From Desulforegula conservatrix Mb1Pa (GTDB lineage: Bacteria; Desulfobacterota; Desulfobacteria; Desulfobacterales; Desulforegulaceae): a stretch of DNA of 64,000 bases. Below, piece after piece: positions 1 through 12,195 of this stretch; position 1 is the stretch's first letter, and the number at the start of each line of letters is the position of its first letter. The notes beneath the pieces are model-generated. The model saw only the letters and a program-made list of their open reading frames with translations. It searched no databases and had not been told where the DNA came from. The translations under genes were made by a program, and so were the position numbers. Location: positions 1 through 64,000 of the forward strand of contig NZ_AUEY01000005.1 of the NCBI RefSeq assembly GCF_000426225.1, in the 5' to 3' direction.

Positions 1-1055
1 AAAAGAGCCTCTATTTCATCCTGCGATACAAATTCAGGCTCCGGCTTTTCTTCTTTTTCCTTTTTGCCGTCATATCCCGAGAGCAGGGACTCAATTTCAT
101 TCTGAGAAATTGATTGTGTGTCAGGCTCATCAGCTGAAACAACAGGTTTGCTTGAAAAAAGGCTGTCAATATCGTCCTGGGATACAGTTTCAAAAGTTGC
201 AGGTTCCGCAGGTTTTGGAGGCTCCGGCTTTATTGCAGCGCCGAGAAGGGCATCAATATCATCCTGGGAAACGGTTGAAGACTCTGCTTTCTCCTGAACA
301 GGCGCAGCAATTGGCTCTGGAACAGGTTCTGATATTGACCCCAAAAGACTGTCGATGTCGTCCTGGGAGATGGCTTTTGCAAGATCCTCTTTAGCTGGTT
401 TTTTAGGTTCCGGCTTTGCAGTGCTTCCAAATAAAGAGTCTATGTCGTCCTGGGAAACAGTTGCCGATTCAATTTTTTCCGGCTTTTCAGGTTTTTCTGA
501 TACAGGCGCAGGAGTCTGTTGCGGAGCTTCCGGTTTCAGAGCAGCACCGAGAAGTGAGTCAATATCATCCTGGGAAACGGTCGAAGATTGAGGTTTTTCC
601 TGAACAGGCTCAGCAATTGGCTCTGGAGGAGGTTCTGATATTGATCCCAAAAGGCTGTCAATGTCGTCCTGGGAGAAAACATCAAAATGACTTTCTGTCT
701 GGGGTTTTGATTCAGCAGGTTTTTTATCGTCTGTTTTGAATACGGAAAGCAGACTGTCAATATCATCCTGATTAACTATGCTGCCAATGCCCGGGCTTTT
801 TTCTTCTTTTGTTTCAGAAAGGTCTGTATCGATTGGTTTTATGCTGCTGAGAAGTGCATCTATATCGCCCTGGGAGACTGATTCGGCAATATCAGATGAT
901 TCTGGCCCGGTTTGCCCGGAGACAACAGGAGAACTCTGACCTTTTTCAGGATTTTTTTTACCTGATGAAGTCTCGGCCTTGTTTGTCTTTCCTGACAAAA
1001 GGGCATCAATATCATCCTGGGATATGGAGTCGAAATCCTGTTTGTCTTGGGCCAT
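1..1055 (-). CDS. Multi-repeat protein with at least eleven FliM-N-terminus-like SQDDIDSLL motifs (partial)
   Basis: The frame opens at an ATG at 1055 and stays open to the window edge: 351 codons, C-terminus missing. I translated it in full. The motif [S/N]-Q-[D/G/N]-[D/E]-I-[D/E]-[S/A]-L-[L/F] starts at residues 12, 61, 95, 128, 161, 201, 230, 263, 292, 317 and 344, separated by 25-49 residues of Pro/Glu/Lys/Ser-rich, probably disordered linker. Residues 138-176 and 240-278 are near-identical, also in DNA (306 bp offset), so the array has grown by segmental duplication. The motif matches the start of FliM in this window (TQDEVDSLL, residues 6-14), the segment that in FliM binds phosphorylated CheY. 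The start lies 16 bp after the fliA stop, so it is probably the next gene of that operon. No catalytic domain is seen in the visible part. A scaffold or sink for CheY-like regulators is inference; the missing C-terminus may hold another domain. Confidence 0.85.
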   Translation of the reverse strand, partial: MAQDKQDFDSISQDDIDALLSGKTNKAETSSGKKNPEKGQSSPVVSGQTGPESSDIAESVSQGDIDALLSSIKPIDTDLSETKEEKSPGIGSIVNQDDIDSLLSVFKTDDKKPAESKPQTESHFDVFSQDDIDSLLGSISEPPPEPIAEPVQEKPQSSTVSQDDIDSLLGAALKPEAPQQTPAPVSEKPEKPEKIESATVSQDDIDSLFGSTAKPEPKKPAKEDLAKAISQDDIDSLLGSISEPVPEPIAAPVQEKAESSTVSQDDIDALLGAAIKPEPPKPAEPATFETVSQDDIDSLFSSKPVVSADEPDTQSISQNEIESLLSGYDGKKEKEEKPEPEFVSQDEIEAL

Positions 1056-1071
1056 AATCAATCATCCCTGT

Positions 1072-1833
1072 TTATCTGTAGACCGAAAGGCGGGATCTGA
1101 GTTTGATGAGCGCTCCTGAATGTATCTGGCATATTCTTGATTCGGTCAGATCCATAACCCTTCCTATTTCCTTCAAGGTAAGTTCATCATAATAATAAAG
1201 GGAGATAACCACCTGTTCTTTTTTTGAAAGCAGACCTATTGCCTTTGCCACAGCCTTTTTCAGTTCTTCCTTTCCCATATTATCGGAAGGATCGTCTTCT
1301 CCCTGAAGATTATCCTGAAAAGTTCTTTTTGATTCCGTGTTTTCCTCGTTCCGTAAAAAAGTATCAAGGCTCAGTATGGATGCCGCATGAATCTCAAAAA
1401 GCATTTCATGATACTCTTCAATGGATATGTGCATTTCAGCAGCGATATCTTCGTCATCGGCAGGCTTTGCCTCCCTTGACTCAAAGGCGAATACCGCCTT
1501 TTCTATGTCGTGAATCCTTTTGCGCATCGATCTGGAATACCAGTCCATGCTTCGGAGTTCATCGAGTATTGCGCCCTTTATTCTGTACTGGGCATATGTC
1601 TTGAGACTGACATCTTTTTTTGGATTGAACTTGTCCACCGCATCTATTAGGCCAAGGCATCCTGCGCTTATAAGCTCGTTAAGATTAACTGAAGACGGCA
1701 GCCTTAAGGAAATTCTGTGTGCTATCTGTCTCACGAAAAACGCATATTTTACAATCTGAGCCTCCCTTTCCTCGGGTGAAAAAAAGCCTGATCCATGGCT
1801 TTCATAGGGATAAAAAAATGTATTCATGCTCAT
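1072..1833 (-). CDS. fliA: RNA polymerase sigma factor for flagellar operons (sigma-28, FliA/WhiG family)
   Basis: 253 aa, the usual length of FliA. Region 2 lies at about residues 25-100 and includes the LNELISAGCLGLIDAVDKF stretch followed by TYAQYRIKGAILDELRSMDW, the FliA signature that recognises the -10 element. Region 3 follows, with a charged linker, and region 4 at about 195-250 ends in a helix-turn-helix (LTLKEIGRVMDLTESRICQI). FliA directs late flagellar genes such as flagellin and chemotaxis genes and is normally restrained by the anti-sigma factor FlgM, which is not in the window. It lies downstream of flhF and flhG in the usual order. The start ATG has a second Met two codons on. 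The preceding gap (1834-2088) is AT-rich and shows no promoter I can defend. Confidence 0.95.
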   Translation of the reverse strand: MSMNTFFYPYESHGSGFFSPEEREAQIVKYAFFVRQIAHRISLRLPSSVNLNELISAGCLGLIDAVDKFNPKKDVSLKTYAQYRIKGAILDELRSMDWYSRSMRKRIHDIEKAVFAFESREAKPADDEDIAAEMHISIEEYHEMLFEIHAASILSLDTFLRNEENTESKRTFQDNLQGEDDPSDNMGKEELKKAVAKAIGLLSKKEQVVISLYYYDELTLKEIGRVMDLTESRICQIHSGALIKLRSRLSVYR

Positions 1834-2088: not shown

Positions 2089-2979
2089 TTAATTGCCCAT
2101 ATTGACGAATCTTTTTACAAAGAATTTTATATTACCGCCTGATTCGGATGTGCGCGGAGACATCATTATCATTCTTGCCAGTTTTTTTATGCTCTGGCTT
2201 GAGGCTGCTCCGGGATTGTCAACAATTACCGGAACCCTTTTAATTACGGATCTTTGAAGTGTTTCATCCTGTGGTATGAATCCCATGTATTCAATGACCA
2301 CATTGCTAAGGAATTTCTGGGCAGCGTTGCTCAGGTTAAGATAAACGGCCTTTGCCTCTGAAGACTCCCTGACCATGTTTATGAGCAGCTTGAACCTTCT
2401 AATTCCGTGTTGGGTGTTCATGACCTTCATCATCGCGTAGGCGTCGGTTATGGAAGTTGGTTCCCTTGTTGCTATTATCATGCAGTCATCAGCCGCAGCA
2501 TTGAAATAAAGGACATTTGGAGAGATTCCTGCGCCCGTGTCCACAAGAACTATATCAAAAGAGCCTTCGAGTGTACCAAGCTCCACAAGAAGATTCATTT
2601 TCTGACCCTGGGTAAGATGGGTCAGCTCGGTTACTCCTGAACCTGCCGGAAGAATTTTTATTCCTGTCGCTGTGGTGAGGAGAACTTCCGAAATGTTTTT
2701 TTCTCCGTCGATTACGTGGCCGATATGATACTCGGGATGCACCCCGAAAATTATATCAACATTTGAAAGTCCAAGGTCAGCGTCAATTATCAGGACTCTC
2801 TGCCCCATGGATCTGAATGCTTCCGCAAGGCTTGCGACTATATTTGTTTTACCAACTCCGCCTTTGCCACTGGTGACTGATAGGACTATGGTGTTTTTTG
2901 AATTTCCTGCCAGAGCAAATCCGGTTTCGGTTGTTTTCTGATCCATCAGTTTTCTTAGGCTGCTTGCCTGGTCAACCAT
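2089..2979 (-). CDS. flhG: Flagellar number regulator FlhG (MinD-like ATPase)
   Basis: 296 aa MinD/ParA-family ATPase. A deviant Walker A sits at about residues 37-44 (GKGGVGKT), followed by the IIDADLGLSNVD switch and VLVDTGAGIS. The extreme N-terminus reads DQASSLR, the DQAxxLR activator motif with which FlhG stimulates the GTPase of FlhF. Conserved basic and hydrophobic residues near the C-terminus fit a membrane-targeting helix. FlhG limits flagellar number and, with FlhF, sets placement at the cell pole. A GGAG ribosome-binding site lies about 7 nt before the ATG. It is followed by fliA and preceded by flhF, the common delta- and gammaproteobacterial order. Confidence 0.95.
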   Translation of the reverse strand: MVDQASSLRKLMDQKTTETGFALAGNSKNTIVLSVTSGKGGVGKTNIVASLAEAFRSMGQRVLIIDADLGLSNVDIIFGVHPEYHIGHVIDGEKNISEVLLTTATGIKILPAGSGVTELTHLTQGQKMNLLVELGTLEGSFDIVLVDTGAGISPNVLYFNAAADDCMIIATREPTSITDAYAMMKVMNTQHGIRRFKLLINMVRESSEAKAVYLNLSNAAQKFLSNVVIEYMGFIPQDETLQRSVIKRVPVIVDNPGAASSQSIKKLARMIMMSPRTSESGGNIKFFVKRFVNMGN

Positions 2980-3059: not shown

Positions 3060-4259
3060 TTACGATGAAATTCTGCGGCTCTCAAATACAAATCCCATTA
3101 TTTTTTTACGTGTGGCAGCCACAAGGTCGTCGGGAACTTTCTGGCCGTTGGTCATGAAAGCAACCGGCATGCGCATGTCCAGTATCTGGTCAAGGATGAC
3201 ACCTGGCCTGCATGTCTCGTCGAGCTTGGTAAAAACATAGGCTGAAGGATTCAATGCAGAGTATCTCTTTGAAGCTTCGAGCATGTCCTCTTTGGATGTG
3301 GTCGCGCTTAAGACAAGAAGGCTTGAAATATCGGCGTCTTTTTGAATCAGATCCGAGATCTCATTCATCTTCTGGGTGTCAAAATGACTATAACCTGCCG
3401 TGTCTATGAGAATGACATCCTTGCCTTCCATCTTGCTCATGGCAATGGCAAGATCTTCCCTTGAAAATGCGGCCATGCACTGGATTCCCATTATGGACGT
3501 ATATGTTTTGATCTGTTCTATGGCCCCGATTCTGTAACCGTCAATCGAGATTACACCTACTTTGAGCTTTCTGACAATACTCAGTTCAGCCGCAAGTTTG
3601 GCTATGGTCGTTGTCTTTCCTGATCCAGTCGGGCCTATCAGCGCAAAAGCCTTGTTCTTTTTTGTATTGCCGCTGTTTATTTCTGTAAAAGGATCGGTTA
3701 CTTCAAGGGTTCCGAGAAGAACATCTATCAGTTTTCTGTTAAAATCCGAAGCTGAAAATTCCTTTCCTTCCATGGCCTCATACGCAATGCTCATGAAACG
3801 TCTGGCTCTTCTCTCTGTCAGCCCGGTTCCTGCAAGTCTGTTAAATAAAGCCATACATTCAGGCAGGCGTCTTACTTCATCAGGAATTCCGTCCGAGAAC
3901 GACAGCGTTTTAATCATGTCTTTGAGGGCATCAAGCTCAGCCTGGATTGTCGCAAGGGCAGAGTCCGGTTTTTCTTCATGACTTTGGCCGCTAAGCTGAG
4001 CCGGGTTGAACAGGTTCTGTACCGGTTGATTCTGAAGCCTTTCAGTTTTTTTTATGAGCGAGGCTCCCTGCTTTGAATTCTGTGAGGCAGGGCCTGATGA
4101 CTGGGTTGCTATGACCTCGAACATGTCCTTGCCATATGGATCCCTGGTTTTTTTCGGCAGTCTTCTTGTGTTCAGAATGACAGCATCTGGTCCGATGCTT
4201 TCCTTTACCATGCTTATGGCTGCCTGTATGCTTTCTGCTGTAAATGTTCGGGATGCCAT
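3060..4259 (-). CDS. flhF: Flagellar biosynthesis protein FlhF (SRP-type GTPase)
   Basis: 399 aa. A basic, low-complexity N-terminal B domain (about 1-110) is followed by the N domain and a SIMIBI G domain. The G domain carries the P-loop GPTGSGKTTT, the SIDGYRIGAIEQ segment typical of FlhF, Ffh and FtsY, the ILIDTAG G3 motif and the TKLDE G4 motif. FlhF marks the site of flagellar assembly and recruits early basal-body proteins; its GTPase is switched on by the N-terminus of FlhG, encoded next. The start ATG follows GGAG at about 8 nt. Between it and flhA lies a dispersed repeat element (4328-4428). Confidence 0.95.
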   Translation of the reverse strand: MASRTFTAESIQAAISMVKESIGPDAVILNTRRLPKKTRDPYGKDMFEVIATQSSGPASQNSKQGASLIKKTERLQNQPVQNLFNPAQLSGQSHEEKPDSALATIQAELDALKDMIKTLSFSDGIPDEVRRLPECMALFNRLAGTGLTERRARRFMSIAYEAMEGKEFSASDFNRKLIDVLLGTLEVTDPFTEINSGNTKKNKAFALIGPTGSGKTTTIAKLAAELSIVRKLKVGVISIDGYRIGAIEQIKTYTSIMGIQCMAAFSREDLAIAMSKMEGKDVILIDTAGYSHFDTQKMNEISDLIQKDADISSLLVLSATTSKEDMLEASKRYSALNPSAYVFTKLDETCRPGVILDQILDMRMPVAFMTNGQKVPDDLVAATRKKIMGFVFESRRISS

Positions 4260-6680: not shown

Positions 6681-7751
6681 TCAGAACATTTTCTTGCCCT
6701 TAAGTTTGTATACATAGGCGAGGATTTCAGCAACGGTCTGGTAAAGATCCGGAGGAACCTCATCACCTATTTCTGCTAACTTATACAAATTTCGGGCCAA
6801 AGGTGGATTTTCCACGACAGGAACACCGGCTTCTGCGGCAATTTCCCTTATTTTCAGGGCAATTGCGCCTGCTCCTTTTGCAATTACCTTGGGCGCTGTC
6901 ATGTTCATGGTGTCATACTGGAGTGCTACTGCAAAGTGGGTCGGGTTTGTTACTACAACATCGGCTTTAGGAACTTCATGCATCATTCTCTGGCGCGCGG
7001 CCTGCATCTGGATGCTTCTTATCCTGGATTTTATCTGGGGATCACCTTCTGTCTGCTTGTATTCGTCTTTTATTTCCTGCTTGGACATTTTCAGCTGCTG
7101 TTCATGGCTCCATTTCTGGAAACCGAAGTCTATAGCCGCAAGCACGAACATGGCAACAAGAACCCAGAAGAACATCCTGAAACAGTCATTTAGTATGAAT
7201 ATAACGATCTGTTCTATGGTGTTGTCGTAAAGCATGAATAGCTGTCCAATGCTTCCCTTTACCGAAGAATAAGCAACAGACGCGATTATGATTATCTTGA
7301 AGATGCTCTTTACAAGTTCCATGGCGGATTTTTTCGAAAAAATGCGGCCAAAGCCTTTCATTGGGTCGAGTTTGTCAGGTTTTGCCTCAATGGCCTGCCA
7401 TGAGACCGTAAAACCAACCTGGATAAAGTTCGAAAAAAGGGCTGCAATAAAGGCTGCAAGTAAAACAGGTGCAATTGTTATGAAAAAGACAAAAGTGAAA
7501 TGATAGGACTGCCTCACAAGTTCATGTATGTCCATCAGGGGGATTCTGTCAAAGGAAAGGCTGCGCCGGATAAGATCGTGCATCTTTCCGTATACAAAGC
7601 CTATGAGAAAATAAAGTGTGACAATCGAAGCAAGTAGCACGATTACAGAGGGAATTTCAACGCTTCGGGCGACCTGGCCTTCTTCTCTGGCTTTTTCCCG
7701 TTTTCGGGGGGTGGCCTCTTCGGTTCTTTCTTGTCCGCTTTCTTCAGGCAT
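6681..7751 (-). CDS. flhB: Flagellar export switch protein FlhB
   Basis: 356 aa. The N-terminus has the charged EESGQERTEEATPRKREKAR segment typical of FlhB, followed by four membrane helices up to about residue 215. The cytoplasmic domain contains the self-cleavage site NPTH at residues 269-272, cut between Asn269 and Pro270, which switches export from hook to filament substrates once FliK reports hook length. The start codon overlaps the fliR stop by one base (TGATG), so the two are translationally coupled. A GGGAGG site lies just upstream. Confidence 0.97.
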   Translation of the reverse strand: MPEESGQERTEEATPRKREKAREEGQVARSVEIPSVIVLLASIVTLYFLIGFVYGKMHDLIRRSLSFDRIPLMDIHELVRQSYHFTFVFFITIAPVLLAAFIAALFSNFIQVGFTVSWQAIEAKPDKLDPMKGFGRIFSKKSAMELVKSIFKIIIIASVAYSSVKGSIGQLFMLYDNTIEQIVIFILNDCFRMFFWVLVAMFVLAAIDFGFQKWSHEQQLKMSKQEIKDEYKQTEGDPQIKSRIRSIQMQAARQRMMHEVPKADVVVTNPTHFAVALQYDTMNMTAPKVIAKGAGAIALKIREIAAEAGVPVVENPPLARNLYKLAEIGDEVPPDLYQTVAEILAYVYKLKGKKMF

Positions 7752-10533: not shown

Positions 10534-11511
10534 TCATTTAAGTAAAAGCTTTTCATCAACCCGAAATGCCTGGAATCCTCTCTGAACTCCTGCGAATCCG
10601 GTTATCTTGTCAAACCCTTCGATTTTTGCGGTGATGGGGTCTGCCGCATCCTGATCAAGCTGGATTATATCTCCCGGCTTAAGCGACAGAAGCTTTTCAC
10701 CTGTTATTTCTGTGGAGCCAAGCATGACCTGTAGGTCAACATGGGACTCCAGAATGATTTCCTTCATTCTTTTTACCCAGGTCAGGTCAATATCTTCTGT
10801 CTCTGCCTGGAATCCTGCTGTGAGCTTGTTTCTGAGCGGTTCTATCATTGCGTAAGGCATACAAAGAATCAGCATGCCCGCAGCCTGCTCAAGCTCCACC
10901 TCGAATTTTGCGACTATTACAAGGTCTGTTGGCAGAACTATTGTTGCGAACTGGGGGTTTACTTCAGATCTTACAAGATGCGTTTTTACAGGTTCAACAG
11001 GAGCCCAGGCTGTTTCAAGATCCATGAGGCAGGATTGCACGACCTTCTTGATCATTTTTTCTTCGATCGGAGTAAATTCGCGGCCTTCGATTTTTGCCTT
11101 GCCCATTCCTTTTCCGCCGAAAAAAGTATCAATGAGATTGAATACAAGCTGGCTTTCAAGAACAAGCAGGGCGTGACCCCTTAAAGGCTCCATCCTGAAA
11201 ACGTGCAGGCTTGTGGGAACAGGAAGTGATCGTCCGAAATCAGAAAATTTGATGGTGTCAAGATTCTCGCTGCTTATGTCAACTGTTGTATGAAGAATGG
11301 AGCTGAGGCTGGAGCGCATTTCCCTTGCAAAACGCTCGTTTATTACCTCAAAGGTGGGCATCCTGCCGCGGATGACCCTTTCCTGACTCATGAAGTCGTA
11401 GAGGGCTACCCCCGTAGTATCCTTGGGGACGTCTGTCTCAACCTCTACTTTTCCGGAGCTCAGACCGCTGAGTAAACTGTCAACTTCATCCTGGGTTAAA
11501 ATATCGCCCAT
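10534..11511 (-). CDS. fliM: Flagellar motor switch protein FliM
   Basis: 325 aa. The N-terminal docking motif for CheY-P is TQDEVDSLLSGL (residues 6-17). The CheC-like middle domain spans about 45-235, with the GGKGMG loop that contacts FliG, and the SpoA-type C-terminal domain about 245-320. FliM transmits the chemotaxis signal to FliG and so sets rotation direction. It is flanked by fliL and fliN in the standard order. The same docking motif recurs at least eleven times in the protein encoded at 1-1055. Confidence 0.97.
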   Translation of the reverse strand: MGDILTQDEVDSLLSGLSSGKVEVETDVPKDTTGVALYDFMSQERVIRGRMPTFEVINERFAREMRSSLSSILHTTVDISSENLDTIKFSDFGRSLPVPTSLHVFRMEPLRGHALLVLESQLVFNLIDTFFGGKGMGKAKIEGREFTPIEEKMIKKVVQSCLMDLETAWAPVEPVKTHLVRSEVNPQFATIVLPTDLVIVAKFEVELEQAAGMLILCMPYAMIEPLRNKLTAGFQAETEDIDLTWVKRMKEIILESHVDLQVMLGSTEITGEKLLSLKPGDIIQLDQDAADPITAKIEGFDKITGFAGVQRGFQAFRVDEKLLLK

Positions 11512-11523
11512 AATCAGACCTGC

Positions 11524-12195
11524 CTACTGTATTGTGAATTCAGTGAAAAAAATATTTTTAGGCCTGGTTTTTCCATCAGTTACCTTTTCCGATATCCTTG
11601 AAATTTCGAGCTTCAGCTTCAGCTTTTCACTGAAATTGAGAAGTTCGTCTTTGTTTTTGGTTGCTATTATCTGTCCCAGTTGCTTAAGGGTTTCAGGCGC
11701 ATATTCCTCAAAAGCCTTTTTTTCTTCCGCATTTTTAAATTCGAGCGCAAGGCGGATAATGAGAAATTTCTGGCCTTCCTTGGGCTGTTCTTCTTGTTCC
11801 TTTGCCTTCTTAAGCGTCATTTTTTTGGCTTTCCCATCGTCTTCCTTTACAGGAGGGGACAGAGGAAGCGTAAGTCGATCCGTGAAAAATATTGCAGGGA
11901 AAAAGGTTTTCTCATCCGGCTTTTTAGGTTCTCCTTCGCCTTTTTTTTCTTCTTTTTCAGGCTTTTCCTCTTTGCCCTTTTTTTCTTCCTTTGCGCTTTC
12001 AGGGGCTTTTTTGTCCTGCCCTTTGCCTTTAAAGAAGAAATATACGGCTGTTAAAATTATTATAAGCACTAAAGCAATAACCGCGCCAATAATCAGCCAT
12101 TTTTTTAGGGGCTTTTTGCCTTCTGCAGAAGCTTCTGTTTTTTCGTGTCCTGCTTTATGTTCCGGTTTACTTTCTGGTTTATGATCTGAACTCAT
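11524..12195 (-). CDS. fliL: Flagellar basal body-associated protein FliL
   Basis: 223 aa. A charged N-terminus, a membrane helix at about residues 33-53 (WLIIGAVIALVLIIILTAVY), then a long Lys/Glu/Pro-rich linker (about 55-95), longer than in most FliL proteins, and a periplasmic FliL domain at the C-terminus ending in the typical FTEFTIQ. FliL surrounds the stator and tunes torque. Its start overlaps the motB stop as ATGA, tying it to the stator genes. Confidence 0.9.
   Translation of the reverse strand: MSSDHKPESKPEHKAGHEKTEASAEGKKPLKKWLIIGAVIALVLIIILTAVYFFFKGKGQDKKAPESAKEEKKGKEEKPEKEEKKGEGEPKKPDEKTFFPAIFFTDRLTLPLSPPVKEDDGKAKKMTLKKAKEQEEQPKEGQKFLIIRLALEFKNAEEKKAFEEYAPETLKQLGQIIATKNKDELLNFSEKLKLKLEISRISEKVTDGKTRPKNIFFTEFTIQ

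Follow-up and report, generated by a model that had tools for sequence, protein, structure and literature searches.

The flagellar cluster of Desulforegula conservatrix Mb1Pa, a bacterium of sulfate-reducer type, contains a gene, named X here, whose product is strongly supported, on sequence profiles and predicted structures, as a paralogue of FliL with a giant N-terminal cytoplasmic tail. The tail carries a long array of the short docking motif that FliM has in a single copy near its N-terminus. The function we favour, with the probabilities about evenly balanced, is that such a tail would gather CheY-P near the stator and the C-ring.

Array gene X and its motifs

The window, i.e., the whole stretch of DNA analysed, comprises 64,000 nt (NZ_AUEY01000005.1, positions 1 to 64,000). 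Its start is also the start of contig C5 of this genome (G000:C5:1), so the C-terminus of X falls outside it. The following features of X lie within the window:

1..1055, minus strand: X, N-terminal 351 codons, open at the contig end and continuing on contig C12 (L005:6576-8975:-)
996..1022, minus strand: motif 1, SQDDIDALL, residue 12
849..875, minus strand: motif 2, SQGDIDALL, residue 61
747..773, minus strand: motif 3, NQDDIDSLL, residue 95
648..674, minus strand: motif 4, SQDDIDSLL, residue 128
549..575, minus strand: motif 5, SQDDIDSLL, residue 161
429..455, minus strand: motif 6, SQDDIDSLF, residue 201
342..368, minus strand: motif 7, SQDDIDSLL, residue 230
243..269, minus strand: motif 8, SQDDIDALL, residue 263
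156..182, minus strand: motif 9, SQDDIDSLF, residue 292
81..107, minus strand: motif 10, SQNEIESLL, residue 317
1..26, minus strand: motif 11, SQDEIEAL(F), residue 344, cut by the contig end

A preliminary description of this DNA had placed eleven FliM-type motifs between residues 12 and 344 of a minus-strand frame, and the 351-codon frame carries them at exactly those residues. The form of the motif in X is SQ[DGN][DE]I[DE]xL[LF]. The 351-residue part has 11 strict matches, whereas 2,000 shuffles of its composition averaged 0.0065 and did not exceed 1. The tail is acidic and disordered-looking, with the motifs spaced mostly 24–49 residues apart, and the linkers are rich in Pro, Glu, Lys and Ser and contain no Trp or Cys. 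Within the motifs there is synonymous codon variation (Ser TCC/TCT/TCG, Asp GAT/GAC, Ile ATT/ATA/ATC), and it is therefore the peptide itself that is maintained, not merely copied DNA. The degenerate DNA pattern CARGANGANRTNGANNNNYTNYT, written for Q[DE][DE][IVM][DE]xLL-like peptides, matched the whole genome 19 times (17 in X, one in fliM and one elsewhere), while the reversed pattern, used as a control, gave 0 matches.

Searches of the window part of X with Pfam and NCBIfam profiles returned weak FliY/FliM-type matches only, at the motif region. Neither the middle and SpoA domains of FliM (no Pfam FliM or FliMN_C match) nor the four-helix phosphatase domain of CheZ (no Pfam match) was found in X. 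A phmmer search of the PDB with the motif yielded nothing useful, the motif being too short.

Probable completion of the gene on a second contig

The two halves of X were joined on the basis of one overlap:

1..248, minus strand: overlap with the end of contig C12 (248 bp, 98% identical, 6 mismatches)

The remainder of the X frame on C12 has 799 residues and about 15 further motifs. We infer that the C5 and C12 parts are one gene of ~1,070 aa with ~26 motifs (by a relaxed pattern), a number that is approximate because the six mismatches allow for strain variation or an extra repeat copy at the junction. There is a single hydrophobic stretch in X, at residues 619–643 of the C12 part, corresponding to one transmembrane helix that is aligned in the relatives. 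The cytoplasmic N-terminal tail preceding it has ~870–890 residues (several hundred in many relatives), and ~110 periplasmic residues lie beyond it.

Between the array and the helix, most homologues share a conserved (D/E)-x-V-I-L-E/Q-x stretch (L005 ~7120-7160, minus strand, e.g., QVILEE), which may be another docking motif. Several draft genomes have contigs that start within the array (window 1–248, G033:C237:1 and G078:C1:1); such genes are therefore probably truncated or missed in annotations. A further DNA match of 26 nt at C14:49299, among type IV pilus/secretion-like genes, was set aside, and a phage origin was unsupported.

The C-terminal domain is predicted to be FliL-like

The preliminary description had advised reading the sequence beyond the window for a C-terminal domain, and both the transmembrane helix and a predicted FliL fold were located there, on contig C12. 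The C-terminal part of X from this genome alone had no Pfam match, but it does match the profile of its relatives (the seed of which includes this copy). When the corresponding domain of the relatives was modelled with AlphaFold2 on a 27-member alignment (pLDDT 83), a Foldseek search of the PDB with the prediction returned FliL chains at all of ranks 1–11. Sequence comparison agreed: among PDB sequences the family profile matched the FliL of H. pylori (7sgn) at 4.8e-6, and Pfam FliL matches 11 of the 27 family members (best 2.6e-6). An ordinary fliL lies elsewhere in the window:

11524..12195, minus strand: ordinary fliL (Pfam FliL 2.3e-07), ~10 kb from X

In several relatives, a homologue of this gene is the second match to the profile of the X C-terminus, and the order-wide X profile also caught ordinary-length FliL-like proteins ~10–13 kb off on the same contigs. 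X shares the predicted fold and the single helix of FliL. Its tail is far outside the 2–28 residues of known FliL cytoplasmic tails (PMC10127578), and X is therefore filed as a FliL paralogue and not as FliL. Known FliL assembles into rings at the stators, in contact with MotA, MotB, FliG and FliF (PMC10127578).

Genomic neighbourhood and conservation in Desulfobacterales

The genes around X that bear on its role are:

1072..1833, minus strand: fliA, flagellar sigma factor, directly upstream of X
2089..2979, minus strand: flhG, MinD-like ATPase, a rival partner of the motif; homologues adjoin fliA in relatives
3060..4259, minus strand: flhF
10534..11511, minus strand: fliM, with a single N-terminal motif, ILTQDEVDSLL

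Mapping of the homologues' surroundings placed them in the flagellar cluster after flhF-flhG-fliA in essentially all cases, and the order flhF-flhG-fliA-X-DUF2802-like was seen in relatives wherever the contig lets it be seen. The X profile matches 53 of the 146 sampled genomes of the order, some of these matches being ordinary FliL; the named loci are mostly from Desulfobacterales (Desulfobacula, Desulfospira, Desulfamplus, Desulfotignum and Desulfobacter). Among the carriers of an array gene are two cultured species, Desulfospira joergensenii (L079) and Desulfobacter latus (L158). The number of motifs ranges from 0 to 26 across X homologues, and several chemotactic families have an X without such a docking motif. 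Motifs are more conserved than linkers in 8/8 orthologue pairs (identities of 0.78–0.98 versus 0.43–0.80). For FliM, the preliminary description had put the motif TQDEVDSLL at the same distance from the N-terminus as motif 1 of X; both are similarly near the N-terminus, but the positions differ (residue 6 in FliM, residue 12 in X).

In some families of the order, a different tandem motif, xFTG(N/D)ELxE, is found on the syntenic FliL paralogue, at L244:3308-4165 (-), L247:2603-3430 (+) and L266 (G068). Covariation between the array and the FliM motif was considered and rejected, as families with xFTGNELDE repeats in X keep LSQDEVDSLL in FliM.

Motif arrays on other proteins

When ~85,000 genomes were scanned for pairs of QxDID motifs lying close together, 106 loci were returned; loci in which no such motif frame was present were left uncounted. 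CheZ proteins with ~3 motifs on the C-terminal tail occur in Asticcacaulis (L154, L170), Azospirillum (L078) and Kapabacteria (L176), and an array protein of Cloacimonadota (L169) has a weak CheZ match. Arrays were also found on FliN (L087, L125, L144) and, by inspection, on FliY (L141). Zn-ribbon membrane proteins with arrays are encoded near ftsE-like genes in Rhizobiales-type genomes (L092:241-1596 (-), L182:3429-4838 (-); also L097), and another such protein occurs in Nitrospinota/Nitrospirota (L159:2857-5136 (-), with truncated relatives at L099:3-1454 (+) and L133). The Zn-ribbon loci adjoin ftsE-like or gatB-like genes, not flagellar ones, and FliM is present in all of their genomes. 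Planctomycete repeat proteins are likewise among the array carriers. One planctomycete family combines an N-terminal array with a long coiled coil (L124:776-3190 (+), L096, L100, L157, L165, L168, L175).

FliM was present in 20/20 tested genomes with arrays of other architectures, and 15 of these 20 arrays are on proteins without a recognised flagellar domain. The chance of finding FliM in 15/15 genomes is ~1e-4 at the order's FliM frequency of 55%, which is a rough background, and many of the genomes are interrelated.

The C-terminal domain of the Nitrospinota array protein was modelled from three sequences (pLDDT 72) and is FliL-like, with FliL at Foldseek ranks 1–11; sequence profiles gave no connection between this domain and the Desulfobacterales X family. 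According to the predicted structures, the array and the FliL fold are joined in two lineages. We tentatively suggest that arrays may be a recurrent, previously unrecognised device, independently added to CheZ, FliN, FliY, membrane or coiled-coil proteins and, in two or more lineages, FliL-type stator proteins. There they might form a local CheY-P store, with the repeat number tuning its size to how many chemosensory kinases are present.

CheY or FlhG as the partner of the motif

Motifs of this type are present at CheZ tails, and a single copy ends the CheZs of the same order (HSQDEVDALLKEFGF). In FliM and FliY the motif is the CheY-P site, and the affinity reported for one peptide is ~27 µM (PMC9126983). 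Across genomes, the number of motifs correlates with the number of CheA proteins (rho 0.59, p 0.0017, n=25; a correlation sought after the fact). The partial correlation on genome size is 0.64, and the relationship is also seen on family means, the sole correction for phylogeny (rho 0.56, p 0.03, n=15), and among CheA-positive genomes only (rho 0.51, p 0.012). Motif presence, unlike number, was not associated with CheA. From these sequence patterns, docking of CheY by the array appears fairly probable, and CheY seems likelier than FlhG as the partner; a double role is possible.

The first rival to consider is that the array docks FlhG. X in completed motors would then sequester FlhG and report flagellar number or place to FlhF/FlhG and the flagellar regulators, akin to HubP/FimV-type landmarks. 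The site at which FlhG docks on FliM is presumably this EIDAL motif; flhG is the second gene upstream of X, and virtually all homologues of X lie in the flhF-flhG-fliA cluster. Binding of FlhG to the N-terminus of FliM has been described (PMC12826062). In addition, the FliM motif is kept in flagellated genomes without a CheA match (CheW was also missing in the 3 checked), and the motif therefore has a CheA-independent role. X itself retains motifs in two array genomes in which CheA and CheW were undetected, G002 (2 motifs) and G151 (4 motifs), and both of these arrays are short; the draft genomes are 92–97% complete, making absence of CheA and CheW uncertain. FliM-bearing genomes that keep the N-terminal motif, with CheA and CheW undetected, are G002, G027, G058, G080 and G151, and they are useful for separating the CheY role of the FliM motif from its FlhG role.

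Against FlhG stands the finding that CheZ has the same arrays, as do Zn-ribbon proteins of genomes with no above-cut-off FlhF. FlhF above the curated cut-off was missing in 6/8 genomes with CheZ or Zn-ribbon arrays, the gene searched being FlhF; Azospirillum has a split, sub-threshold FlhF match, and at least 5 of the 8 look truly FlhF-negative. FlhG is therefore an unlikely partner in those genomes. Motif number also follows CheA number, and there is no obvious reason for 26 FlhG sites. We regard FlhG docking as an unlikely explanation of the array.

The preliminary description had proposed a multivalent partner for CheY-like regulators, possibly tethering CheY-P to the motor. The FliL-fold C-terminus, the CheZ-tail arrays and the CheA correlation lend partial support to this predicted binding role. 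The docking of FlhG to the FliM motif, the nearby flhG and the two array genomes with CheA and CheW undetected count against CheY as the only partner. Its suggestion of a phosphatase scaffold is unsupported in this genome, where neither Pfam nor a profile specific to the order detected a CheZ. Replacement of CheZ by X was also considered and dropped, arrays occurring in genomes with and without CheZ.

Proposed role at the motor and remaining alternatives

Past the anatomy of X, every step of the mechanism is one that we infer. The FliL domain would put X into the FliL rings at the stators or next to them, and the FliL-fold C-terminus makes it plausible that X is held near the stators. Each motif would weakly bind one phosphorylated CheY or CheY-like molecule via the groove used by the FliM N-terminus. 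CheY is monovalent, so any effect of the array would come from local concentration or buffering and not from avidity. The CheY-P pool held next to the C-ring could feed the FliM middle domain, or it could buffer CheY-P where several chemosensory kinases feed one motor. With many such weak sites on a protein beside the stator, the zone of capture would be larger.

Alternatively, X could be a sink or buffer for CheY-P or single-domain response regulators away from the motor, lowering free CheY-P and shaping the response kinetics, with the FliL domain a mere anchor. The array far exceeds the length that a delivery tether requires, related arrays are found at non-flagellar loci (near ftsE-like and gatB-like genes), and this genome has 6 CheA matches with CheZ undetected, so that a buffer could substitute. 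The FliL-fold anchor in two separate lineages argues instead for a location at the motor, and a sink elsewhere is judged decidedly improbable.

The motifs might also mimic FliM or compete with it at the C-ring/stator interface, by binding a structural partner that is neither CheY nor FlhG, making X a torque or brake regulator. Such a role would leave the CheZ arrays unexplained, and we know of no structural C-ring partner for the FliM N-terminal motif; we think it very unlikely. The point in its favour is the reported ability of the N-terminal region of FliL to inhibit motor function (PMC10127578).

Selfish tandem expansion of a low-complexity tail without a binding role would suit the strongly variable copy number and the recently duplicated segments, but it is scarcely credible given motifs conserved above linkers in every orthologue pair, with synonymous codon change, and the recurrence of the same nine residues on unrelated proteins, always in FliM-bearing genomes.

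Comparison with known systems

X resembles FliL in having one transmembrane helix, a C-terminal periplasmic FliL/SPFH-like fold and a place in the flagellar cluster. It differs in its tail, which is 2–28 residues in FliL (PMC10127578) versus several hundred residues with up to ~26 motifs in X, and the genome has an ordinary fliL besides. HubP/FimV polar landmark proteins (described in part in PMC12826062) likewise cross the membrane with a single helix, have a long cytoplasmic part that is acidic and repetitive, and are linked to flhF/flhG; by their description the orientation is opposite to that of X and the repeat is different, and X lacks a LysM domain. ChePep and CheO of Campylobacterota are, like X, lineage-specific proteins, and they tune CheY-dependent switching, but by their descriptions they have other domains and no such motif array is reported. 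CheZ has the same type of motif on its C-terminal tail, in three copies in some cases, and X differs from it by the lack of a phosphatase domain. With FliM and FliY, X shares the nine-residue docking motif (EIDALL) near the N-terminus; FliM has one copy, whereas X has a long array and lacks both the middle and the SpoA domain of FliM.

To our knowledge, no protein like X has been described, and a search of the literature (open-licence papers only) found no multi-motif docking protein. The array and the FliL fold are each known; their combination, size and recurrence appear to be undescribed in the papers found. Accounts of motor switching usually assign a single CheY-P docking peptide to each FliM subunit. 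If the proposed role is correct, many more docking peptides per FliL-type chain would change the route of the signal to the switch, and a buffer tuned by repeat number would be quickly adjustable by evolution. X would then offer a direct handle on the roles of FliL paralogues and on how several chemosensory pathways feed one motor. It also allows both uses of the FliM motif, for CheY and for FlhG, to be probed in a single protein. The recurrence of arrays on unrelated proteins of swimming bacteria points to an undescribed form of signal collection at or near the motor.
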